IMG/VR virus record: IMGVR_UViG_3300009684_000093
Coordinates: 1-33,991 of that record
Reading direction: 5' to 3' (one strand)
DNA: 33,991 nt
Source: a virus
The position numbers were made by a program, and so were the translations under genes. This document shows, one piece after another, positions 1-33,991 of this stretch. The notes beneath the pieces are model-generated. The model did not search any database and was not told where the DNA came from. It was given only the letters and a program-made list of their open reading frames with translations. Positions within the stretch are counted from its first letter, which is position 1. Every line of letters starts with the position of its first letter.

Positions 1-1332
1 CGCCACGAGGTGGACAAGAAGGGCGAGGGCTGGGGCAAGGATTCTGCCGGGTATATCGCTTGGCTCCTGTGGGGTGGCGATGCCGGCAAGGCCTGGGCCG
101 ACCGCAAGAGCAAGGAACTTGACCGCAAGGAGGACAAGACCGTGAATAGCAAGGCATCGCACAGCGTGCAGGATGACGGCGAGAAGATCAAGATTGAGCG
201 CGTGGAGTTGTTCATGGCGTTCGACCCGGCCATTGACGATGGTGAGGCCGACCCGGAGCTGAAGCGGTTCAACAACGAGCGCCTGAAGTCCATCGTCCGC
301 GCCACCCGCGCCCACATGGCGCGTGGCTCCTTCCCCCAGGTCGTAGTCATGCACGAGAAGAACGGGGACGAGCCGAAGAGCGCCGTTGGCAGAATTCCTT
401 CGATCAATTACGAAGAACGCAATGGCATCGGTTACATTGTGGGAGACATGGAGGTGAACAAGCCCATCTTCGACAGCCTCATTGCAACCAACGCGTTCCC
501 GCGTCGGTCGGCAGAGATTTGGGCTGAATCGAACCACCTGTCGGAAGTGGCCCTGCTGGGCCGCGAGACCCCGCGCCGGCCGCTGCCTGATACCCACTTC
601 GCCCGCGAGGGGAAGAAGATCACTTGTTCCAAGTCAAACTTCGACCTCGCCGGGGTCGGAGGCGGACTCAACACCTTTGTCCCGGCGACCACCAAGGAGG
701 AAGCCTCAATGGCATCCAACGATTACCGCGAAGAGCTTGAGGCGATGAAGTGCGCCATCGGCGAACTCGCTGACATGATGAAGAAGAAGTTCGGTGAGGA
801 CGAGTCCGAGGACGAGAAGGACGAGATGTCCGCCGAGACCATGGAAGACATGGACTATAAGGACGAGAACGCCGAGGACGGCGTCCACATCGACATCGGT
901 TCGCACGAGGGTGCGCCGGATTCGGTGGACATCGAAGAGGAAGAGGCCATGCCCGTGGTCGCTGCCCGTTCGACCTACTCGCTGCGTTCGGAGAACGCCC
1001 GCCTGAAGTCCCGCATGGAACGCCTCGAGGCCGAGATTCGCCGCGAGAAGTTCTCCCGCGAGATCGACATCCTCGAGCAGGACGGCTACCGCATCCCCGA
1101 GTCGCAGCGCGACAACCTGATGACCCAGCTCCAGGCCAGCCGCGACCCGGTTGCCCTGCTTGAGTCGTGGCGTTCCCTGTTCTCCCGTGATCCCATCGGT
1201 GCGAAGATTGACATGAGCCGTGCGGCCATGCCGAAGACCGTCAGCGGTGGCGACATCTCCCAGTTGGTCAAGGAATTCGCCGGCAAGCCGGAAGAGTTCG
1301 CCAAGGCCATCAACTCCCGCATCAAGCGTTAA
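1..1332 (+). CDS. Head maturation protease fused to scaffold domain (C-terminal part; gene continues from the right end of the window)
   Basis: The frame is open from base 1 (Arg-His-Glu-Val-Asp-Lys), so the start lies outside; a GTG at base 10 is not the real start. Numbering from that GTG, residues 1-32 carry a conserved phage segment ending in WLLWGGDAGKAWA. Residues 60-205 look like a prohead protease of the Mu gpI/S78 type: a candidate catalytic His in VVMHEK (H115), followed by GRI, a candidate Ser in RRSAEI (S167), then EVALLG. Residues 255-315 are strongly acidic and 325-352 form a likely coiled coil, as in scaffolds. The protein should cleave and shape the procapsid. The peptide VGGGLNTFVP (216-225), between the protease and scaffold parts, recurs at the capsid N-terminus. 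The gene lies just upstream of cement and capsid genes, as expected. The catalytic residues are inferred from family pattern. Confidence 0.8.
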   Translation, partial: RHEVDKKGEGWGKDSAGYIAWLLWGGDAGKAWADRKSKELDRKEDKTVNSKASHSVQDDGEKIKIERVELFMAFDPAIDDGEADPELKRFNNERLKSIVRATRAHMARGSFPQVVVMHEKNGDEPKSAVGRIPSINYEERNGIGYIVGDMEVNKPIFDSLIATNAFPRRSAEIWAESNHLSEVALLGRETPRRPLPDTHFAREGKKITCSKSNFDLAGVGGGLNTFVPATTKEEASMASNDYREELEAMKCAIGELADMMKKKFGEDESEDEKDEMSAETMEDMDYKDENAEDGVHIDIGSHEGAPDSVDIEEEEAMPVVAARSTYSLRSENARLKSRMERLEAEIRREKFSREIDILEQDGYRIPESQRDNLMTQLQASRDPVALLESWRSLFSRDPIGAKIDMSRAAMPKTVSGGDISQLVKEFAGKPEEFAKAINSRIKR

Positions 1333-1353
1333 TCGCAGAAGGACATTACAGAA

Positions 1354-1743
1354 ATGCTTCAGTTCTCCCCCAATCTCGTTGCCAGCGGCGACATCAACCC
1401 CTACGCCATCGTGAAGATGTCCACCACGGCATTCACGGGTTCGGCCTCCACCGCGGCTGCTGATTACGTTGTCGGCGCTGCTGACGGTTCGACTCGTCGT
1501 TTCGACTCCGCGCTCCACGCGGCTGCCGGCGACCCGATCAGCCTCCAGCCGTCCAACTGCGTGCAGCTCAAGTGCAACGGCTCCACCGCCATTGCCGCTG
1601 GTGATGCCGTCAAGGCAACCACCGCTGGCGCTGCCGTGGCAACCACCACTTCGGGTGATGTTCCCTTGTTCGTTGCTCTTGAGGCCGCGTCGGTTGGCGC
1701 GATCTTCTGGGCTTACCGTCTCCCCGCCACCAAGGCGATCTGA
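1354..1743 (+). CDS. Capsid cement/decoration protein (DUF2190-like)
   Basis: A 129-residue Ala/Gly/Thr-rich protein between protease/scaffold and major capsid, the usual place for a head decoration protein. It has the pattern VVGAADGSTRRFDS, VQL, an Ile-x-Ala-Gly-Asp stretch and a C-terminal IFWAYR. The same pattern occurs in the genes at 31764 and at the N-terminus of the gene at 32154, so this is one of three paralogous domains. It probably binds the outside of the capsid shell and stabilises it. The family assignment (cement, DUF2190-like) is from composition, the AGD motif and gene position. Confidence 0.7.
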   Translation: MLQFSPNLVASGDINPYAIVKMSTTAFTGSASTAAADYVVGAADGSTRRFDSALHAAAGDPISLQPSNCVQLKCNGSTAIAAGDAVKATTAGAAVATTTSGDVPLFVALEAASVGAIFWAYRLPATKAI

Positions 1744-1768
1744 TCCCTGACCCTAAGGAGGTCTTACC

Positions 1769-2818
1769 ATGAGTTATGTCGCAGTCGGTGGCGGACTGAA
1801 TACGTTCGTCCCCTCCACCAATGCCCTTGCAACGGGCGCTCTCCAGGTTGAATTCACCCGTGCGGTGAACACCTTCCCCATCACAAAGTACGCGCAGATC
1901 GTTCCCACGCAGCAGATGACGGGCTACTACCTCCGTCTTGACTCGGACGACAACGTCCGCGTGACTGATGTGAACGAGTTCGCTTGGCCCCTGGGCAACG
2001 ACCGCCCGGTCGGCAAGATGAACCAGCACGACTTCGTGTCGTTCACCGCTGCCCGCTACGCCTACCCGTTCTACATCCCGAACGAGACCGTGAAGCAGGC
2101 CGCGTGGGACGTTGTCGCCCAGCACGCTCGTGCGAAGGCGCAGCTCGCCATGACGGCGCGCTCGATGCGTACCGCGACCGCCCTGACCAATACGGCGGCC
2201 GTCAATGCGTTCACCGCAGTCGGCAACTACTTTGCAACGGGTACGGCTTCGGCTGCTGGTGGCCCGTGGACGAGTGCTGGTAGCCCGGACAACCGCATTC
2301 AGAAGGGCATTCAGCAGGCTCTCCAGCGCATTTCGCTTGCCACGGGCGGCGCGGTGCGTGGTGAGACTGACATCATGATGGTCATTTCCCCGACCATTGC
2401 GAATGCTCTTTCGCAGACTTCGGAAGTTCGTGACTACGTCAAGAACTACCCGGCTGCTCTGCCCTTCCTCCAGGGTGCGGACACGTTCGCCAAGTACGGC
2501 CTCCCTCCGAACCTCTTCGGCGTGCAGGTCGTGGTCGATGACAGCGTGAAGGTCACCACCCGCAAGGGTGCTTCCAGCACCACTCGTTCGTTCGTCTACG
2601 GCAACTCGGCGATCTTCGTGAGCCGTCCGGGTGGCCTGGTGGGCGTGGAAGGTTCCACTTCGTTCTCTACCTGTCAGATTTTCGCCTTTGAGGACATGAC
2701 GGTTGAGAACTGGGACGATCCGCGTGATCGTCGCATTGAAGGCCGCGTGATTGACAACAGCACCTCGGAACTGGTTGCTCCGGTGTCCGGCTTCCTGGTT
2801 GCTGATATCACGAGCTGA
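1769..2818 (+). CDS. Major capsid protein
   Basis: 349 residues, directly after the protease/scaffold and cement genes, with a near-perfect Shine-Dalgarno (AAGGAGGTC) about 7 bases before the ATG, consistent with very high expression. The body has the mixed pattern of HK97-type capsids: a conserved stretch around residues 85-105 (HDFVSFTAARYAYPFYIP), a long helix at about 108-135 and a central beta-rich domain. No catalytic motif is present. Residues 6-15 (VGGGLNTFVP) are identical to a peptide in the protease/scaffold gene. The HK97 fold is inferred from context and size. Confidence 0.85.
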   Translation: MSYVAVGGGLNTFVPSTNALATGALQVEFTRAVNTFPITKYAQIVPTQQMTGYYLRLDSDDNVRVTDVNEFAWPLGNDRPVGKMNQHDFVSFTAARYAYPFYIPNETVKQAAWDVVAQHARAKAQLAMTARSMRTATALTNTAAVNAFTAVGNYFATGTASAAGGPWTSAGSPDNRIQKGIQQALQRISLATGGAVRGETDIMMVISPTIANALSQTSEVRDYVKNYPAALPFLQGADTFAKYGLPPNLFGVQVVVDDSVKVTTRKGASSTTRSFVYGNSAIFVSRPGGLVGVEGSTSFSTCQIFAFEDMTVENWDDPRDRRIEGRVIDNSTSELVAPVSGFLVADITS

Positions 2819-2838
2819 CGTTCGTTCGCCACAGTCAT

Positions 2839-2870
2839 GGGGGGGCAGGAGTTTCGATTCCTGCCCCCCC
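2839..2870 (+). terminator. Strong stem-loop after the capsid gene
   Basis: A perfect 12-bp stem (2839-2850 with 2859-2870) and an 8-base loop, just after the capsid stop codon. No T-run follows, so it may act as an mRNA 3' stabiliser or processing site that favours capsid mRNA over downstream genes, rather than a full terminator. The GTTTCGATTCC string resembles a tRNA T-arm, but no other tRNA part is present. Confidence 0.7.
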
Positions 2871-2891
2871 GTGTTCGCATAAGGGGACACC

Positions 2892-3386
2892 ATGCCACAG
2901 TACGCCGGCTATGCGGAACTTGAGTCATCGCTTGATGCCAACATCATCGCGCAGCTCTCAAGCGATACGGGCAGCAACAACCCCGGCGCGAACTGCCTCG
3001 TGGACACCATCCTGCAACGCGCCAGCAGCGTGGTGCAAGCGTATGCCCGCGTAGGGAACATCTACACGGACACCGACCTGAACGCGCTGGCGACCGCCAA
3101 TGACGGCCTCCTCGTGATGCTGACGGTGGACCTAGCAACTGAGATGCTGTTCCAGCGCCGCGCCATGAAGATAACCCCGGCCGTGGAGGCGCGGGTGACC
3201 CAGGCCCGTGCCATGCTCGAGGCGCTGCGGGACGGCAAGATGATCTTCGGAGCGGTGGCCAAGGCCGCCGATGCCGGCGTGGGTGAGGTGGCCGTTGTGC
3301 CGATCAACAATCTCGCCTGGTACAACAACGTGAGCAGCAGCGCGTTCTTCCGTCCTCGCGCCACCAGCATCTACCGGGGCGGCTAA
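2892..3386 (+). CDS. Head-tail connector protein
   Basis: 164 residues, first gene after the capsid. A helical N-terminal half (about residues 8-105) and a short C-terminal tail match the general look of gp6/DUF1320-type adaptor proteins that sit below the portal. It is preceded by GGGGAC and overlaps the next gene by one base (TAATG). I recognise it by position and helix pattern rather than by a diagnostic motif, so the exact family is open. Confidence 0.55.
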   Translation: MPQYAGYAELESSLDANIIAQLSSDTGSNNPGANCLVDTILQRASSVVQAYARVGNIYTDTDLNALATANDGLLVMLTVDLATEMLFQRRAMKITPAVEARVTQARAMLEALRDGKMIFGAVAKAADAGVGEVAVVPINNLAWYNNVSSSAFFRPRATSIYRGG

Positions 3387-4072
3387 TGGCATCCGACTGG
3401 GGCAAGCGCGTTGCCAAGGCGCTGCGCGACCCCGCGGTGGTCAACGGTATCGCCACGCTTGTAGGCCGCTACGCGAAGCAGCACATTGCAACGAGCCGCG
3501 GCCGGGACGAAAACGGCGGGGAAACGGCCTTGCAGCCCTTGGCGGCCGTGAAGGGCGAATACTGGACTACGAGCAAGCCGAAGGACTCCGCGGCCATCAA
3601 GGCCACGCGGGAAACGGTCGTGGTTCGACAGCGCAAGATGAAGAACGGCAAGACCGTGGCGAAGCCCACGACGGTCAAGGAATACCTCGTCACAGGCGAG
3701 TCGTACCGCGCCGGCGGGAAGCCCCTGCGCGACACCGGGCAGATGATGCGGGAGATGAACGCAAAGGGGCAGACAGGCGGCAACGGCGTTTCGATCATCC
3801 TGTACGGCCCGCTGCACGCCATCTTCCACGAGCTTGGGTTTGAGACCAGCGGCCCCAACTACATCCCGCTGACGCGCAAGGGCAAGCGGTCGCACGCTAC
3901 AGGCCGAAACCCGACCAAGGAGGGCTTGGTGCGCGGCAAGGACTTCGTGATGGCTTGGCAGGGCGTGACCGTCCCCAAGCGACCGTTTATGATTCCTACC
4001 AACGATGAATGGGAAGAGATCGGAAAGTCGATTAGACTAGGCCTCGCCCGAATCCTGAAAGGAAGAAGCTGA
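3386..4072 (+). CDS. Virion morphogenesis / tail completion protein (Mu gpG-like)
   Basis: 228 residues with the features of the phage virion morphogenesis family: LRDTGQMMREM near residues 112-122, a central HAIFHELGFE near 142-151, and a late PKRPFMIPTNDE (about 198-209) before a C-terminal amphipathic helix. Members join head and tail or finish the tail end. It is basic, sits between the connector and the tail tube, and overlaps both neighbours by one base, implying translational coupling. Confidence 0.65.
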   Translation: MASDWGKRVAKALRDPAVVNGIATLVGRYAKQHIATSRGRDENGGETALQPLAAVKGEYWTTSKPKDSAAIKATRETVVVRQRKMKNGKTVAKPTTVKEYLVTGESYRAGGKPLRDTGQMMREMNAKGQTGGNGVSIILYGPLHAIFHELGFETSGPNYIPLTRKGKRSHATGRNPTKEGLVRGKDFVMAWQGVTVPKRPFMIPTNDEWEEIGKSIRLGLARILKGRS

Positions 4073-9948: not shown

Positions 9949-10296
9949 ATGACAACTACTTGGAACATCATCTTTGAGCAGGGCGCGGAATTTCAGGCGG
10001 TGGTAACGGTCAGCGATTGGCCTGCGACCTACCCCGCGCTATCAACGGCAAGCGATTGGCGGCTCCGCGTGGCTCGAGCGGGCGAAACGGCCTTTTTGAC
10101 CGCCAATACGTCCAACTACATCACGCTGAACGGCGCAAAGACCGTAGGGACTATCAAGATTCCTTCGACCATCACCAGCGCATTTCCGTGCGGCAACGCA
10201 TTGTACGACCTTGACATCCTGTTTCCTAGCAGCGTGGTCAAGCGGTTGATCTCGCTTGGTTCTGCACAGGTCAACATCTACGCGGGGTCCGTCTAA
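9949..10296 (+). CDS. Small beta-structured tail accessory protein
   Basis: 115 residues. The opening (TTWNIIFEQGAEFQAVVTV) and following strands (ASDWRLRVARAGET, then YITLNGAKTVGTIKIPSTITSAF, then ALYDLDILFPSSVVKRLI) match small immunoglobulin-like or collar-type phage proteins commonly found just before fibre genes. It overlaps the fibre start by one base (TAATG), suggesting coupled translation and a role at the fibre base. The function is inferred from shape and position. Confidence 0.45.
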   Translation: MTTTWNIIFEQGAEFQAVVTVSDWPATYPALSTASDWRLRVARAGETAFLTANTSNYITLNGAKTVGTIKIPSTITSAFPCGNALYDLDILFPSSVVKRLISLGSAQVNIYAGSV

Positions 10297-12203: not shown

Positions 12204-12691
12204 GCCGGGTATGGCTTGCCCTTGCGGCGGTGGCCCTGCTGGCAGTTGCGTGCAGTCCGGTGGAACGTATCGCGGGTGATACGAACGCCATCCGCACGGA
12301 TGCCCAAGCGCTCATTGACCACGGCCACGCCATCAAGGACGCGGAGGTGGTGGAGCGCGCCACTCGCATTGACACCACGGCGGCGGATATCCACGTTCAG
12401 CTCACCCAGGTGCAGGACATCACCCCGACATGGCTTTCGACCCTGCGCTGGTGGGGCATTGGCGTGGCGGTGGCAGGCATCGCCTTCCTCGTATGGCAAT
12501 CGGGCATTGGCACGGCCATGCGCGTTGCAATCGGATGGCTGCCTCGTAAAAAGGTAGCCGCGGCGGAACTCGCCGTGGATATGCTAGACCCCAACCGACC
12601 CGAAGGGGATCGGGAATTCATCGCGGCAATGCGGTCAGATCCTGAATTTGATGCGGCATATCGCAAAGCAAAGACTCGAAGAAAGGCTTGA
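12200..12691 (+). CDS. Lipoprotein with internal membrane span (spanin-like candidate)
   Basis: 163 residues. The N-terminus is a signal peptide with lipobox LAVAC (Cys at about 19). A helical segment of about 60 residues follows, then a transmembrane stretch near 80-103 (RWWGIGVAVAGIAFLVW), then a basic, helical C-terminal 60 residues. A lipid anchor plus a later inner-membrane span resembles the topology of unimolecular spanins, which link the two membranes of Gram-negative hosts at lysis, but the C-terminal domain is longer than usual. It is sandwiched between two other small membrane-protein genes. Confidence 0.4.
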   Translation: MSRVWLALAAVALLAVACSPVERIAGDTNAIRTDAQALIDHGHAIKDAEVVERATRIDTTAADIHVQLTQVQDITPTWLSTLRWWGIGVAVAGIAFLVWQSGIGTAMRVAIGWLPRKKVAAAELAVDMLDPNRPEGDREFIAAMRSDPEFDAAYRKAKTRRKA

Positions 12692-27962: not shown

Positions 27963-29957
27963 ATGGAAGGCATGAGCGACAATCGCAACGAAATTCAACA
28001 GCGGCTCGGGGTGTTTGCGCGCCCCGGCGCGAAGGTGAAGTTTGGCAACAATGATCGCCTCGGTGCGCTTTTGGAGGCCGCGTATCAGGCTTCAAGGCAC
28101 AACAATAGAAGCGAAGTAAGGCGGCTGCTGAATGAAGCGAAGAAGGAGATTGATTCAAGCACTCCGGGATACTTGATCCGCGATTACCGGGATTTGAAGG
28201 AAGGTCTGAAGGAAGGAATGTCCCGCCCCGGCGCGAAGGCGAAGATGGGCATCCTGGATCGCATCAGTCGCGGTTTGAGTGCTGCCACGGCGAAGCCTGT
28301 TGATCCCACCACGCCGCAGTATGCCTCTGGCCTGAACGCCGCGAAGAAGGCCGCGGAAGATGCCAAGAGCAACTACGACTACATGGCCGATCTGAACAAT
28401 GCTCGGTTCAAGCAGCTTGATAATTACGTCAAGGTGACGAGCAGCATGATTGCTAAGATGACTTCCACGGCCGATATCCAGCGGCTCATCGCTGGCCTGA
28501 AGGCCGCGGTGGCTGCGCGTGTGTTCGTGCAGTCCTCCATGAAGACCCCGTTCTCTCGCTTCGGCAGTAAAGCGATGTTTGACGAGGGATGCGGTACTGG
28601 CGCTGGTGGCTTCAAGCCTGGAAACACTTGCGGCAAGGAAGATGGCAAGGCTGGCGGTGGCAGCGATGCCAAGAAGAAGAAGCCCGGAGAAGGCAAGCCG
28701 AAGAAGGAACGCCGAGAACCCAAGGCTAAAAAGCCGTCGCGTCAAATCATGAAGGGATGGGAAAAAAACGGAGTAGACTCGCTCAATCAGGCTCAAGAAA
28801 TTGGCGAGGTTTGGGGCGATGTGTACGACAGGCTCGAAACCAGGACAGACTCAACGGCAATGGCGTTGAAGTCAGAACTGGATATGGTCAAAGATCAATT
28901 TGACGATCTTGAGTCGAATCTGACAGAGGCAGTTTCTGACGTTGATTCAGATTTCGGCACGGATAGTGTGGAAGACATTATTGCCGCTGGCGAAATCATC
29001 AAGAATGCGCCTGCTCAACTGCGACAGATTGAAGGAAAAATTCGTCGTATTCAGCAGGAGGGAAAGAAGTCTCGCAGGAAGGCAGAAATGCCCGCTGCCG
29101 ACAAGGTGGCATCGAATATCAACAACAATCAAGAAGCAGCAAATCGGGTTAGCCAGCAAATTAGAACTGCACTTGAGGGAATCCAAGGCCGTCGTGGTCG
29201 AGGGGTTGATGCTGCGCGCCGCGAACTGAAGCAACTTGCGCAAGACCTTGTTTCGTCCAGGCAGAGACAGATTTCCGATGTCGATACGGATGAAGTGGTT
29301 CAGAAGGCTGGCGCAACCGCCAATGAGAACCGACAGCGCATCAAGCAGATCGGAAAGCAGGTTGCTGACGCAGCTCGTCGCGCTACGGAATCCGCATCGG
29401 CTCCGAAGGCCAAGCGCGCACCCAAGGCAAAGGCTCCAAAGGCTGCCAAGGATCTCGAAACTCCGAAGGCCGATGATGCCGATATTGATTCCTACTGGGG
29501 TCCGTCTTCAGATCAGTTGAGGGAATACATCCAAAAGGCATCCGCACAATTGGATGATGCCATCAATAAAGGTGACATTGATCGACAGCAATATCTGCAA
29601 GACCGTGTGTCTTCGTTGGAAGCTGAATTGGAAGAATCAACCAGGAATCGCGGAGATGATGGGTATGAGTATTACTCCCGATCTTCCCGCCGTTCGATGA
29701 TGTCTCGGCTTGACGTTATCGCCAATCGATACTCTGCCCGAACCCGCAAGGTCAAGAACTGCACCGTGGACAGCAAGCCGCTGGCCTACGGAAAGGATGA
29801 CGCAGGCGAGACCGAGCAGGACAAGGCCGGCCTCAAGCTCATGGAGAAGGCCGACAAGGCCGTCAGCGACAAGATCCGCACACTCATCAAGGAAGGCAAG
29901 CCGCAGGACCAGGCGGTTGCCATTGCGCTCGACATGAAGCGCCGAGGAGAACTCTGA
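27963..29957 (+). CDS. Large head-associated protein with repeated short motifs
   Basis: 664 residues, preceded by GAGGAGG 8 bases upstream. The short motif (A/S)R(P/F)G(A/S)K occurs at 19-24, 87-92 and 198-203. Residues 210-224 (CGTGAGGFKPGNTCG) are a motif I know from many phage structural proteins. Then comes a Lys-rich linker (about 225-260), long coiled-coil stretches (270-620) and a C-terminus (DKIRTLIKEGKPQDQAVAIAL) shared with many phage head-associated proteins. It may be internal to the capsid, ejected, or processed by the protease. The central part is richer in A and T than neighbours. Confidence 0.6.
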   Translation: MEGMSDNRNEIQQRLGVFARPGAKVKFGNNDRLGALLEAAYQASRHNNRSEVRRLLNEAKKEIDSSTPGYLIRDYRDLKEGLKEGMSRPGAKAKMGILDRISRGLSAATAKPVDPTTPQYASGLNAAKKAAEDAKSNYDYMADLNNARFKQLDNYVKVTSSMIAKMTSTADIQRLIAGLKAAVAARVFVQSSMKTPFSRFGSKAMFDEGCGTGAGGFKPGNTCGKEDGKAGGGSDAKKKKPGEGKPKKERREPKAKKPSRQIMKGWEKNGVDSLNQAQEIGEVWGDVYDRLETRTDSTAMALKSELDMVKDQFDDLESNLTEAVSDVDSDFGTDSVEDIIAAGEIIKNAPAQLRQIEGKIRRIQQEGKKSRRKAEMPAADKVASNINNNQEAANRVSQQIRTALEGIQGRRGRGVDAARRELKQLAQDLVSSRQRQISDVDTDEVVQKAGATANENRQRIKQIGKQVADAARRATESASAPKAKRAPKAKAPKAAKDLETPKADDADIDSYWGPSSDQLREYIQKASAQLDDAINKGDIDRQQYLQDRVSSLEAELEESTRNRGDDGYEYYSRSSRRSMMSRLDVIANRYSARTRKVKNCTVDSKPLAYGKDDAGETEQDKAGLKLMEKADKAVSDKIRTLIKEGKPQDQAVAIALDMKRRGEL

Positions 29958-30526
29958 TGCCCCCGATTACGACCCCGCAGGAAAACTTCCGCAAGGTGAC
30001 GGCAGCGTCCGTCCCGGCCACCTACAACGCGGCATCCGCCGTCCTGACCACAACCGTGCCGTCTAGCGGCACTTCGGGAAGCGGGAACGTGCTGCTGTTT
30101 GACATCACCAGCGCATCGGTGAGCGGTCAGAACGCCTCCTTGCTGTATGTCACCCCGTTCTTGGTGTCGGCCACCACGGCGCAGACCACTATCGGTATGC
30201 GGATCATCGGATGGCGCAAGTACCTTGAGGCCGCTGGCACAACCTTTTGGTACATCCCCACGGTGCTGGCGGATTTGACGCTGACCTTCACGACCGGCAC
30301 GGTCCCGAACTACACCATTGACAGCGTTGCGAATACGCGCACGTTCAGCGGCATCACGCAGGTCTCGGGAACCCCGGCGGCGAACCTCTATTCCCCGGCC
30401 ACGTCTGCTGCAACAAACGTGGCACCCGCCTATGCGATGATCGACCTGGCAGGCGCGCAGTACGTCACCGCTCAGTTCAAGTCCAGCGACACGCCCGACA
30501 TGGGCGCGTTCTGGTCCACCCTCTGA
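29957..30526 (+). CDS. Beta-rich head structural protein
   Basis: 189 residues rich in Thr, Ser, Ala and Val, with regular strands (SVPATYNAASAVLTTTVPSS, GNVLLFDITSASV, TFWYIPTVLADLTLTF). It overlaps both neighbours by one base. It resembles a surface-exposed head or head-fibre protein and sits just before the lectin-like gene. No enzymatic motif is seen. Confidence 0.5.
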   Translation: MPPITTPQENFRKVTAASVPATYNAASAVLTTTVPSSGTSGSGNVLLFDITSASVSGQNASLLYVTPFLVSATTAQTTIGMRIIGWRKYLEAAGTTFWYIPTVLADLTLTFTTGTVPNYTIDSVANTRTFSGITQVSGTPAANLYSPATSAATNVAPAYAMIDLAGAQYVTAQFKSSDTPDMGAFWSTL

Positions 30527-31767
30527 TGAATCGCGCCAACCGCCCAAGGATGTCACGCGTCAGCGGCTCGTCCTACGCGAGCAAGCTGATAGGTCGCGCA
30601 GGCGACGGCTCCACGCTGTCGATTGACTTTACCACGGGTGTCCTTGACCCGCGGATTACGTTCAGCCGCGCAGACGCTACGGCGCGAGCTACCTTTATCA
30701 ACAACCTTGGCTACGTCACAACCGTTTCATCAGCTCAAGATCCTCGCTTTGATTATGACCCGACAACGCTTGTGGCAAAGGGATTGCTGCTAGAAGCGCC
30801 AGCGACCAATCTGCTTAAATTTTCCGCGTATCCCGATTCGGGTTGGCTTCCATATGGTGGATTTACTAGACCATCTCCGTATGTACTAGTTACAAGCCCT
30901 GCGAATGATTCAACGGCAACTAAGTTGAATTTTACAGCGGTTGGAAATGGTATGTACGTGACCGCCGGGACGATGGGGTACACAAATTCAATTGGAAGCA
31001 CTTACACGTTTAGCATTTGGCTTCGCGCAACCACCGGAACAACAAATGCATCGCTGCGCTTTAGTGATTCGGCTGTGGGTTCTTTTACAACCGTTTCTTT
31101 TACAACCACATGGACGAGATATCAATTTCAATACACGGCACTTTCCAATAGTGGTCCCGCAATGCAAAGTGCATCTGGAACTGCAACTGGAGAGTTTGAG
31201 TGTTGGGGTTGCCAACTAGAACTTGGAGCGCAATGCTCTAGTTATATCCCGACCACAAGCGCAGCAGTCACTCGCGCCGTAGATACCGCCATCATTGCCG
31301 CCGGCTCAAACTTCAGCTCTTGGTACACGGGTGGGACAACTGGTACGTTTGTGGCTAATTGGTATGGCAACGCGTCAAGCTCAACCGCTCGCTCGGTCAT
31401 TGCAACCAACGATCAAACGACTAAGCATTTGCACATGTACCAAACCGCCTCGGCGCTCACGCTGCGCCTGGCAGACTTTGGAGCAGCGGCGACGGTCACA
31501 ACGAGCAACAGCCTGACCGCCGGCGCGTTGACGAAAGGCGCATTCAGTTATAACGGCACGGCTACTAGTTTGTGCCTAAACGGTGGCACGGTTGCTACCG
31601 GAACGCTGGCATTCAGCGCCGCCCCAACGTGGTTGAGTATTGGCGGCCCGTCCACAAACGGGACAAGCATCACCGACACGACCGTCATGCTCAACAACAG
31701 CATTCGGTCGCTCAAGTATTTCCCCGCTCGCCTGAGTGATGGTCAAATTCAAGGACTAACCACATGA
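30526..31767 (+). CDS. Lectin-like (concanavalin A-type) surface protein
   Basis: 413 residues. Residues 28-80 carry a widespread phage pattern: STLSIDFTTGVLDP, then RFDYDPTTLVAKGLLLEAPA and TNLLKFS, normally followed by carbohydrate-binding modules. The middle (about 100-245) reads like a beta-sandwich carbohydrate-binding module, the C-terminal third (265-413) like a LamG/concanavalin-type sandwich. Such proteins are usually tail-associated; here it lies in the head block before two cement-type genes. It may bind host or environmental glycans. It overlaps the next gene by four bases (ATGA). Confidence 0.65.
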   Translation: MNRANRPRMSRVSGSSYASKLIGRAGDGSTLSIDFTTGVLDPRITFSRADATARATFINNLGYVTTVSSAQDPRFDYDPTTLVAKGLLLEAPATNLLKFSAYPDSGWLPYGGFTRPSPYVLVTSPANDSTATKLNFTAVGNGMYVTAGTMGYTNSIGSTYTFSIWLRATTGTTNASLRFSDSAVGSFTTVSFTTTWTRYQFQYTALSNSGPAMQSASGTATGEFECWGCQLELGAQCSSYIPTTSAAVTRAVDTAIIAAGSNFSSWYTGGTTGTFVANWYGNASSSTARSVIATNDQTTKHLHMYQTASALTLRLADFGAAATVTTSNSLTAGALTKGAFSYNGTATSLCLNGGTVATGTLAFSAAPTWLSIGGPSTNGTSITDTTVMLNNSIRSLKYFPARLSDGQIQGLTT

Positions 31768-32150
31768 GCAGCGCCGGAAATGTCCCCAATTTTATAGCCG
31801 CATCTGGGCAAACAATTTACCCTTTTCGCATCTGCAAGATGGGTGGTCAGAATTTCACGCTACAGGCGGCGAACACGTCAAATGACATTGTCCTTGGCGT
31901 AGCCGACGGCAGTACCTACCGTTTTGACTCAACCGCACATGCCATTGCTGGCAGAGTGGTGAATGTACAGAATGGCAAATTTGTGCAATTACAGGCTGGT
32001 AGTGCAATCACAGCGGGCGACCTTTTGGCCGTCAGTACGGCGGGCGTGGTCATCCCTGCGGCTGGTACACGCGCCTACTACCAGGCGTGTGAAAGCGCCG
32101 TGGCTAGCGAAATTCTTTGGGCCGCCCGAATCCAAACTTGGGAATACTGA
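31764..32150 (+). CDS. Capsid cement-like protein, second paralog
   Basis: 128 residues starting SSAGNVPNFIAASG. It shares VLGVADGSTYRFDSTAHAIAG, VQL, ITAGD and a final EILWAAR with the cement protein at 1354, and its first 14 residues match the start of the next gene (SNAGNTPNFTAAS). So this pair arose by tandem duplication. It probably decorates the capsid. Confidence 0.65.
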   Translation: MSSAGNVPNFIAASGQTIYPFRICKMGGQNFTLQAANTSNDIVLGVADGSTYRFDSTAHAIAGRVVNVQNGKFVQLQAGSAITAGDLLAVSTAGVVIPAAGTRAYYQACESAVASEILWAARIQTWEY

Positions 32151-32153
32151 TCT

Positions 32154-33845
32154 ATGAGCAACGCAGGAAATACCCCAAATTTCACAGCCGCCAGCACGGT
32201 TCAGCCTTTCTCGTGTGTAAAGGTCAACACGACCAGCGCCTTTCAGGCGAATCCCGCAACGGCTGAAACTGATGTGGTGGTGGGCATCACAGACGGCTCT
32301 AGCCGCCTGTTCAACACATCAGCGGCAGCAATTTCCGGCGGCGTTCTTAGTCTTCAAAATGGTGAATTCGTGCAGCTTACCGCTGGCGGAACAATCACGG
32401 TTGGCGACGGCTTGCGTCCAAGCAGTACCGGGACAGTAGTGACCGCAAATAATCGCGCCCAGTTTGTGGCCTGTGAAAGCGCGGCAAGTGGTGAAGTATT
32501 TTGGGGAAAGAAGATTGGAGCGGTAGAGTCGGTTGTGGTTCCTGGTGTTTATGGATCAAGCCGCGTTGGACGATTCTTGCTTGATGCAACAACGCAAGCC
32601 GATTCCGTTGACATCATCATTGCTGGAGATTCAAACACCAACTACAGCGGTTGGGGTTGGGCGGACGGATTCAACTTTGCTTTGCAAACAAACACTTCTG
32701 CCCTTGAATACGCCACACCAATTACGCCAACCACTTCATGGGATGACACGTTCTACTACGGCGTGTATCAAACCAATGGCGCGTATTCAAAAATCAATGC
32801 TTCCGGTACTGTTGTAAATCCGGCTGGATCTCCTTCGCTTGGCGGAACACTTGCCAAGGGCATCACATCAGGGCCAGCGGCGTTAACTACCTTGATGAAT
32901 CGAGGTAGCGGAAATTTGCAACCAAATATAAGTCCATTTGACTATGGTTGGATTGCCAGCGGAGATTGGGCAGATCCATTTGGAGGTGTGTTGTCTTATG
33001 AAAGCACCACCCGAATGTCGTGGACTCAATTGCAAATCTTGTATCGCGTAGTTCACGGCAAGGGTCCGTCTATGGGAACCCTTCGTCTTGCCAATCGTCT
33101 AGATGTCGCTCCGTATACTGTCTATGGAACTACGTCAATTGATTGCAACCAGGCAAGCTATGAGTGGGTTACCTCAACTCTTACTATTGCTGCTGACAGC
33201 GCAAGAACAAACATCCAATGCCAATACGCTTTTGCAGCAAACAGCATTTCAACTAGCCGAATTACAGGCCCGATGGCGGTTGCTTTGAACTCTATTTGCA
33301 CTCCGCGAAAGGGATACGCGGTTACCTGCATAAGCCATCACGGTGGCGCAAGCATGGATACGGTTGCAAGCAACGTAGTGCAGGCAGCGCCAATCGTTCG
33401 ACAGTACCTCAAAGAAGCACGATCAAGGCAAATTGTTTGTGGTGGATCTGGTCGCGTTATTGTTTGCATTCAAGGCGGAGCAAATACTGGCGTAAATCCT
33501 TGGAGTCAAAGCGCCACTACATTCTTTGAACAATGTGCAACAGAATGGACAGCACTTGGATATCCAAGTTCTGATCTCGCTTTCTTGGGATTTGTGTCAC
33601 ATCAAAACGAAGCTGTAGACACCATGACAGCTTATAGAGCTTCGGCTATAGCCCTTGCAAGTTCTTCGCCTCAGTACACAATTGTGAATCTTCCAACGCT
33701 GGTTTCTTACAGCGATATGATTTACGGAGGCGGATCAAATGTCACATGGTTTGCCAATGCCAGCACGGAACGCATCCATTTGTCGGAAAGCGGCTACAAG
33801 ACAATTTCTGGACGAATTATTGCAGCACTTCTTGCGAGCGCATAA
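32154..33845 (+). CDS. Capsid cement domain fused to SGNH hydrolase
   Basis: 563 residues. Residues 1-122 are a third cement-type domain (VVVGITDGSSRLFN, VQL, ITVGD, EVFWGKK). From about 150 an SGNH/GDSL hydrolase follows: block I IIIAGDSN (S160 nucleophile), block III QGGAN (N444), and a C-terminal TERIHLSESGY with Glu (E539) and His (H542) in place of the usual Asp-xx-His, typical of esterases and deacetylases that act on acylated sugars. A virion-displayed enzyme is the natural reading. The hydrolase part has clearly more A and T than the cement part of the genome. Confidence 0.75.
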   Translation: MSNAGNTPNFTAASTVQPFSCVKVNTTSAFQANPATAETDVVVGITDGSSRLFNTSAAAISGGVLSLQNGEFVQLTAGGTITVGDGLRPSSTGTVVTANNRAQFVACESAASGEVFWGKKIGAVESVVVPGVYGSSRVGRFLLDATTQADSVDIIIAGDSNTNYSGWGWADGFNFALQTNTSALEYATPITPTTSWDDTFYYGVYQTNGAYSKINASGTVVNPAGSPSLGGTLAKGITSGPAALTTLMNRGSGNLQPNISPFDYGWIASGDWADPFGGVLSYESTTRMSWTQLQILYRVVHGKGPSMGTLRLANRLDVAPYTVYGTTSIDCNQASYEWVTSTLTIAADSARTNIQCQYAFAANSISTSRITGPMAVALNSICTPRKGYAVTCISHHGGASMDTVASNVVQAAPIVRQYLKEARSRQIVCGGSGRVIVCIQGGANTGVNPWSQSATTFFEQCATEWTALGYPSSDLAFLGFVSHQNEAVDTMTAYRASAIALASSSPQYTIVNLPTLVSYSDMIYGGGSNVTWFANASTERIHLSESGYKTISGRIIAALLASA

Positions 33846-33848
33846 ACA

Positions 33849-33991
33849 ATGATCGACCTCAAGCCAACCGAAGAGATGGCCGCCAACGCCGAGCGTGGAC
33901 TAGCGCTGCGCGACAAGCACGGCCGCGGTGGCACGGAGGTCGGCGTGGCACGGGCGCGGGACATCAAGAACCGCGTCAACCTGTCCCCGGA
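33849..33991 (+). CDS. N-terminal part of the maturation protease/scaffold gene (continues at base 1)
   Basis: 47 codons plus two bases, running off the right end. It reads MIDLKPTEEMAANAERGLAL, then RDKHGRGGTEVG and ARARDIKNRVNLSP. From memory of the family, this is the first half of a conserved phage segment whose second half (RHEVDKK, then AGYIAWLLWGGDAGKAWA) opens the left end of the window. In such proteins about 11 residues separate LSP from RHEVDKK. Joining the ends directly puts the frame out of register. Confidence 0.8.
   Translation, partial: MIDLKPTEEMAANAERGLALRDKHGRGGTEVGVARARDIKNRVNLSP

Follow-up and report, generated by a model that had tools for sequence, protein, structure and literature searches.

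A cement-type capsid domain fused to an Ape1-like SGNH hydrolase in an uncultivated virus: a probable capsid-displayed, exchangeable O-acetylesterase

The window analysed here, 33,991 nt of an uncultivated virus (IMG/VR record IMGVR_UViG_3300009684_000093, positions 1-33,991), carries on its plus strand an ORF at 32154-33845 that is open across 563 aa and holds a cement-type N-terminus and an SGNH hydrolase in one frame. Host-glycan catalysis is usually assigned to tailspikes, and the question raised by this gene is whether the hydrolase is borne on the capsid instead. An enzyme-bearing cement, if present on the virion, would distribute many catalytic sites over the head. It would have a bearing on head-first adsorption and on the movement of particles through capsule, biofilm or mucus, and would represent a natural counterpart of engineered capsid display. 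The features considered are collected in Table 1.

Table 1 Features of the window at and around the fused gene
Feature	Position	Strand	Basis
189-aa protein, first gene of variable payload locus	29957..30526	+	homologs upstream of short-leader SGNH genes
LamG/ConA-like lectin-type protein with short basic N-terminal leader	30526..31767	+	phrog_5939; PF13385
Cement B, plain cement paralog, 128 aa	31764..32150	+	46% to fusion anchor; clade with fused copies 100/99
Cement anchor domain of fusion, aa 1-128	32154..32537	+	AlphaFold2 model matches capsid decoration proteins
Ape1-like SGNH hydrolase payload of fusion, aa 129-563	32538..33845	+	Ape1 match; invariant residues; L001 DNA homology from 32538
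Catalytic-block codons S160, G168, N444 and H542	32631, 32655, 33483 and 33777	+	
CBM-like beta-sandwich inserted in SGNH fold, aa ~185-390	32706..33323	+	structure matches
Gene between fusion and cement A, first part	33849..33991, continues 1-1332	+	conserved; bridged by L005
Cement A, plain cement/decoration protein, 129 aa	1354..1743	+	phrog_673 E 3e-7; PF09956 17.2 bits; paralog of fusion anchor
Major capsid protein (MCP)	1769..2818	+	phrog_29 major head protein E 7e-5; conserved across relatives

Cement paralogs and the fold of the anchor

The fused gene lies at one end of the window and the MCP gene near the other, and contig L005 spans both ends (32932-33991 at 100% and 1-3432 at 99.8%, with 31 bases between). 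The comparison reveals that the 3' and 5' ends of the window are parts of one gene, a 501-aa ORF in L005. As L005 joins the ends inside one gene, the order of genes is 189-aa protein, LamG protein, cement B, cement-SGNH fusion, conserved head-region gene, cement A and MCP, and the window is probably a nearly complete, circularly permuted genome of about 34 kb, with 31 bases absent. HMM searches assigned no function to the split gene; by its position, it would be a head-maturation or scaffold gene.

The sequence-only reading had grouped three cement-type domains (1354, 31764 and the N-terminus of 32154), and these are true paralogs with E values of 1e-21 to 6e-31. The fusion anchor aligns with cement B at 46% over 124 aa (E 6e-31) and with cement A at 36% (E 1e-21), while cement A and cement B align with each other at 42% (E 6e-23). 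The two motifs on which the grouping had been based needed correction in detail. The pattern given as DGS-x-x-F is indeed common to the three domains but is one residue longer, DGS-x(3)-F (DGSTRRF, DGSTYRF and DGSSRLF), and D48, G49 and S50 are invariant in 15 relatives. The ends described as E-x(2)-FWA-type are FWAYR, LWAAR and FWGKK, the fused copy having FWG and not FWA. Cement A directly precedes the major capsid gene (1769) and occurs as one copy per related phage. In the cement tree, all the fused anchors and cement B fall in one group (100/99), and cement A forms a clade apart from the fused copies, outside this group. The best explanation is that the fusion anchor (~125 N-terminal residues) is a duplicated and diverged copy of the phage's cement protein. 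One weak cement homolog was also recorded in Curvibacter phage TJ1, among unnamed genes upstream of tail genes.

At the sequence level, the cement matches (PF09956, phrog_673 and phrog_122) are weak. The score of cement A with PF09956 (Phage_cement_2/DUF2190) is under the cut-off of 24 bits, and the fusion gives no match to this family at E 1. The similarity was checked by structure prediction, using an AlphaFold2 model of the fusion built from a 54-row alignment (mean pLDDT 89, pTM 0.80), and was upheld, as residues 3-128 match solved capsid decoration proteins. The base of the phi29 head-fibre protein gp8.5 (6QYY) is matched with Z 14.7 and 2.2 Å over 111 aa, and the HFTV1 capsid stabilising protein (CSP) with Z 14.1, followed by the decoration proteins of Sf11 (Z 12.5), BB1 (11.6), FCWL1 (10.3), T1 (10.0), Pam3 (9.7) and TW1 (9.7). 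The PDB matches listed for the anchor (6QYY, 8QSY with Z 14.1, 9OCB, 8PKH, 9KZJ, 8HDT and 5WK1) are all capsid proteins of the decoration or cement kind. The decoration-protein fold of DUF2190-type cement is present in these residues (Z 9.7-14.1 versus TW1, T1, Pam3, HFTV1 and Sf11), and DUF2190 proteins of BFVD match the anchor with a TM of 0.73-0.74 by target length. The N-terminal two-barrel base fold of gp8.5 type is also present (Z 14.7); the C-terminal supercoiled fibre of that protein is absent from the fusion model, and the SGNH hydrolase stands in its place. Support independent of the model is provided by the cement profile, which among PDB sequences matches the phi29 capsid fibre protein best (E 0.016), the two being in register. 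The cement identity, weak by sequence, is strong by predicted structure.

The SGNH hydrolase and its catalytic residues

The hydrolase had been described as complete, and this description stands: GDSN (S160) and GGAN (N444) are present, and the alpha/beta/alpha SGNH fold is unmistakable by structure, with many SGNH enzymes matching at Z 12-23. The enzyme part matches Ape1 of C. jejuni (8GKD, Z 23.1 over 325 aa) and of N. meningitidis (4K3U, Z 22.8), in alignments of 319-328 aa that lie within residues 127-563 and include the inserted domain. The insert itself (185-390) matches a porphyran-binding CBM (8XMZ, Z 8.4) as well as meprin MAM and Fbs1 regions, and CBM4/CBM6 in Foldseek. An SGNH fold with an inserted CBM35-like domain is the known architecture of Ape1 (PMC6174289), and it is this combination that the fusion shares with Ape1, at Z 23 over 325 aa. 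The two differ in that the Ape1 proteins are cellular periplasmic enzymes with Asp at -3 of the His, where the fusion has a Glu that is not conserved in its family, and in that the identity is 8-14%; kinship with Ape1 is not recognisable by sequence. The enzyme part is likewise undetected by Pfam in the fusion, no hydrolase being called in any of the 27 rows scanned, and the enzyme profiles have no match at E 10 among PDB sequences. A viral structure library contains an uncharacterised uncultured-phage protein of 532 aa (A0A6J5RY71) whose alignment covers most of the fusion model. The model points to an O-acetylesterase fold of Ape1/CE type, which is narrower than the 'deacetylase or esterase' proposed earlier.

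The conservation of catalytic residues was recorded in 49 homologs, filtered at 80% identity and with a median pairwise identity of 28%. S160, G168, N444 and H542, belonging to SGNH blocks I, II, III and V, are invariant in 49/49. The earlier reading of an E-xx-H motif holds only in part: E539-R-I-H542 is present in the fusion, but no conserved acid three residues before the His is found in the family, the residue being Glu in just 7 of the 49 homologs. The catalytic acid is uncertain, and a dyad or another acid is possible.

Exchange of payloads and location of the enzyme

When the fusion was sought in other phages, the same architecture was found in at least seven contigs (L006, L016, L017, L018, L019, L025 and L124). 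A chance fusion or assembly chimera was dropped as an explanation on account of this recurrence. Searches of 50,697 phage records with the fusion, with the window MCP and with a short-leader relative of the enzyme gave no relative of any of the three; in genome_contigs, there is likewise no relative of the MCP or the enzyme. No report of a cement-SGNH fusion was found in the open-access papers to which the literature search was confined. Most relatives of the enzyme possess just a short leader (~20 aa), which is often basic (MRAIRTR...), and some sit in tail or lysis surroundings (L098, L102 and L118). Hence the enzyme family is not capsid-bound as such.

The exchange of the enzyme between anchors is evident from contig L001, a phage that differs from the window in its major head protein (phrog_9953) and has an enzyme 74% identical to that of the window; the L001 protein also matches Ape1 (Z 23.4). 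Its enzyme is fused to a 165-aa domain, a paralog of two genes after the L001 MCP (40%, E 1e-34; 41%, E 4e-25). In this region, only the LamG part and the enzyme have DNA homology between the window and L001; that of the enzyme sets in at 32538, the exact cement/enzyme border. Between L018 and L019, the cement anchor is 97% identical and the flanking DNA 94-96%, and the enzymes are 35% identical. When anchor labels (cement, L001-type or short leader) are mapped on a tree of 55 enzymes, 11 changes are needed as compared to 11.5 when the labels are shuffled; the payload has been swapped so often that anchor type is without phylogenetic signal on the enzyme tree. This modularity, as read from the sequences, is the strongest evidence for a putative exchangeable capsid-mounted enzyme. 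The fast exchange between anchors further suggests a host-range-type selection acting on the head, which is directly testable with recombinant anchor and enzyme domains.

The model of the L001 anchor is poor (pLDDT about 30-60) and profile comparison detected no kinship between it and the window cement; homology of the two anchors is therefore not claimed. The position of its gene, together with a weak match of its paralog to PF09956, hints that the L001 anchor may be a capsid protein. Other payloads were also observed on both anchors. In L008 (1688-3724), the same cement anchor is followed by 550 aa that match the tail spike family phrog_4636 (E 4e-31) and the virion structural family phrog_6002, and in L170, L172, L173 and L180 the L001-type anchor bears long payloads of other kinds (570-740 aa), none of them matching SGNH. 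A spanin-like lysis gene in the 12216-12691 region of the window resembles, by eye, that of L001 (7616-8101); this likeness between two otherwise unrelated phages sharing LamG and the enzyme is a hint of a common host.

We consider it probable that the fusion is a capsid-displayed, exchangeable O-acetylesterase of phi29-head-fibre design. The earlier proposal of a cement-type anchor bearing an esterase for the capsid, not the tail, is well supported by the decoration-protein matches, by cement A preceding the MCP and by the MCP-neighbour mount of L001. The anchor would bind the outside of the capsid at cement-type sites (quasi-threefold or MCP-trimer), and the C-terminal 435 residues, Ape1-like with a CBM-like insert, would project outward where gp8.5 carries its fibre. 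As an extra copy of the cement is joined to the enzyme, the shell is probably studded with enzymes, and we infer a mixed shell in virions, with outward display on the head and esterase activity. Each head would bear many copies, which on contact would bind glycans of the host surface (or matrix) and remove their O-acetyl groups; the outcome, at a guess, may be that the particle is held or walked through the glycan layer, or that a receptor is exposed before the tail engages.

In phi29, the base of gp8.5 (6QYY/6QVK) is placed on the capsid surface at quasi-threefold positions and the C-terminal part protrudes (PMC6542822). The N-terminal base of the fusion is predicted to have the same fold, whereas gp8.5 bears a supercoiled fibre with no enzyme, and here an SGNH esterase is attached and two plain copies of the base are kept. 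The closest functional precedent, though built differently, is the turret head protein of HFTV1. The HFTV1 turrets have a capsid-mounted carbohydrate-binding and deacetylase-like enzyme, for which head-first binding and modification of host glycans has been proposed; in the same study, no other haloarchaeal virus was found to have a homolog of the turret head (PMC12494034). HFTV1 resembles the present phage in the cement fold of its capsid stabilising protein (Z 14.1), but it has a separate turret base on MCP hexamers, and its enzyme is polysaccharide-deacetylase-like, not SGNH, and unfused to cement. T4 Hoc, T5 pb10 and Sf14 gp20 also combine capsid-binding domains with display domains thought to touch cells or glycans (PMC7602432, PMC11821841); their displayed domains are Ig-like adhesins and not enzymes.

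SGNH enzymes on tailspikes are well known, which lends some weight to an ordinary tailspike esterase bound to the tail or neck of the virion, the cement-like domain being re-used as a non-capsid mount. Esterase or SGNH tailspikes and fibres have been described in phages Possum (PMC9569702), Aristophanes (PMC8471582) and Moo19/B2 (PMC11654681) and in the Pan3 tailspike (9VYH); the fusion would resemble them as a virion-borne enzyme for surface polysaccharide, unlike them in that theirs are tail-mounted via tail-attachment domains. Such a location would also agree with the enzyme homologs near tail genes (L098 and L118), with the match of the cyanopodophage Pan3 tailspike to the enzyme fold (Z 11.9) and with a LamG neighbour from a tail protein family. 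It is nevertheless unlikely, since the anchor is matched, among solved structures, by capsid decoration proteins, the gene is placed among head genes and away from the tail-fibre-like gene at 10296, and in a second phage type the enzyme is attached to an MCP-neighbour protein.

Action in the infected cell or at lysis, where an Ape1-like peptidoglycan O-acetylesterase would unblock the endolysin by taking off acetyl groups and the cement domain would be incidental, appears quite improbable. The best fold match is indeed a peptidoglycan O-acetylesterase, and the gene adjoins a spanin-like lysis gene in some phages (L001, L098 and L117), but in the window it belongs to the head module and not to the lysis module, and a capsid-type anchor that is kept while its payload is often swapped fits better with a surface-exposed host-range function. 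A capsid-displayed adhesin that binds glycans and no longer cuts would suit the non-conserved triad acid, the carbohydrate-binding-like insert and the lectin-like neighbour, but is very improbable, as the invariance of Ser, Gly, Asn and His at 28% median identity would be unnecessary in a pure adhesin and a 'diluted triad' deacetylase (9H4U) is among the fold matches.

Beyond this one phage, the capsid-displayed esterase may be part of a wider pattern, to which we give an even chance: several unrelated uncultivated phage types would run a natural 'capsid display', in which recombination at a fixed domain border moves members of a shared pool of glycan esterases (and the lectin-like payloads next to them) onto any capsid decoration protein or short docking leader, host-surface specificity being set on the head as well as the tail.

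The payload locus upstream of the fusion

The LamG protein, which the sequence-only reading had joined to the enzyme in a putative bind-and-modify module on the capsid, is without a cement anchor. It matches the C-terminal part of the 'tail protein' family phrog_5939 (E 8e-45), its PF13385 match (E 0.002) is below the cut-off, and its 80% DNA identity to L001 is limited to the LamG part. Of 57 short-leader enzymes, 23 have a homolog of the 189-aa protein immediately upstream, as against 0 of 20 anchor-fused enzymes (counted as loci, some in near-identical contigs), and close relatives of the window phage have short-leader enzymes in the same position, upstream of cement A and MCP. Tentatively, the 189-aa protein could be where payloads with short leaders (such as MRAIRTR and MNRANRPR) attach, which in the window would apply to the LamG protein; the cement fusion would be a second slot with its own anchor.

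The 29957-32150 region of the window and the same region of L028-L093 constitute a variable locus between MuF-side genes and the block ended by cement A/MCP. Its content differs among close relatives, being LamG, Gly-rich, GDSL or enzyme genes, or a 101-aa gene. An SGNH-type short-leader protein occupies the LamG slot in L006 (4953-5996) and L093 (2441-3469), that of L006 being a canonical GDSL lipase (PF13472, E 7e-14). The same enzyme with a short leader was also observed in T7-like and HK97-like phages (L106 4295-5644, L108 2811-4175, L113 5605-7026 and L130 5947-7362), where its gene follows the major capsid gene region and precedes the tail tubular or head-tail adaptor gene.
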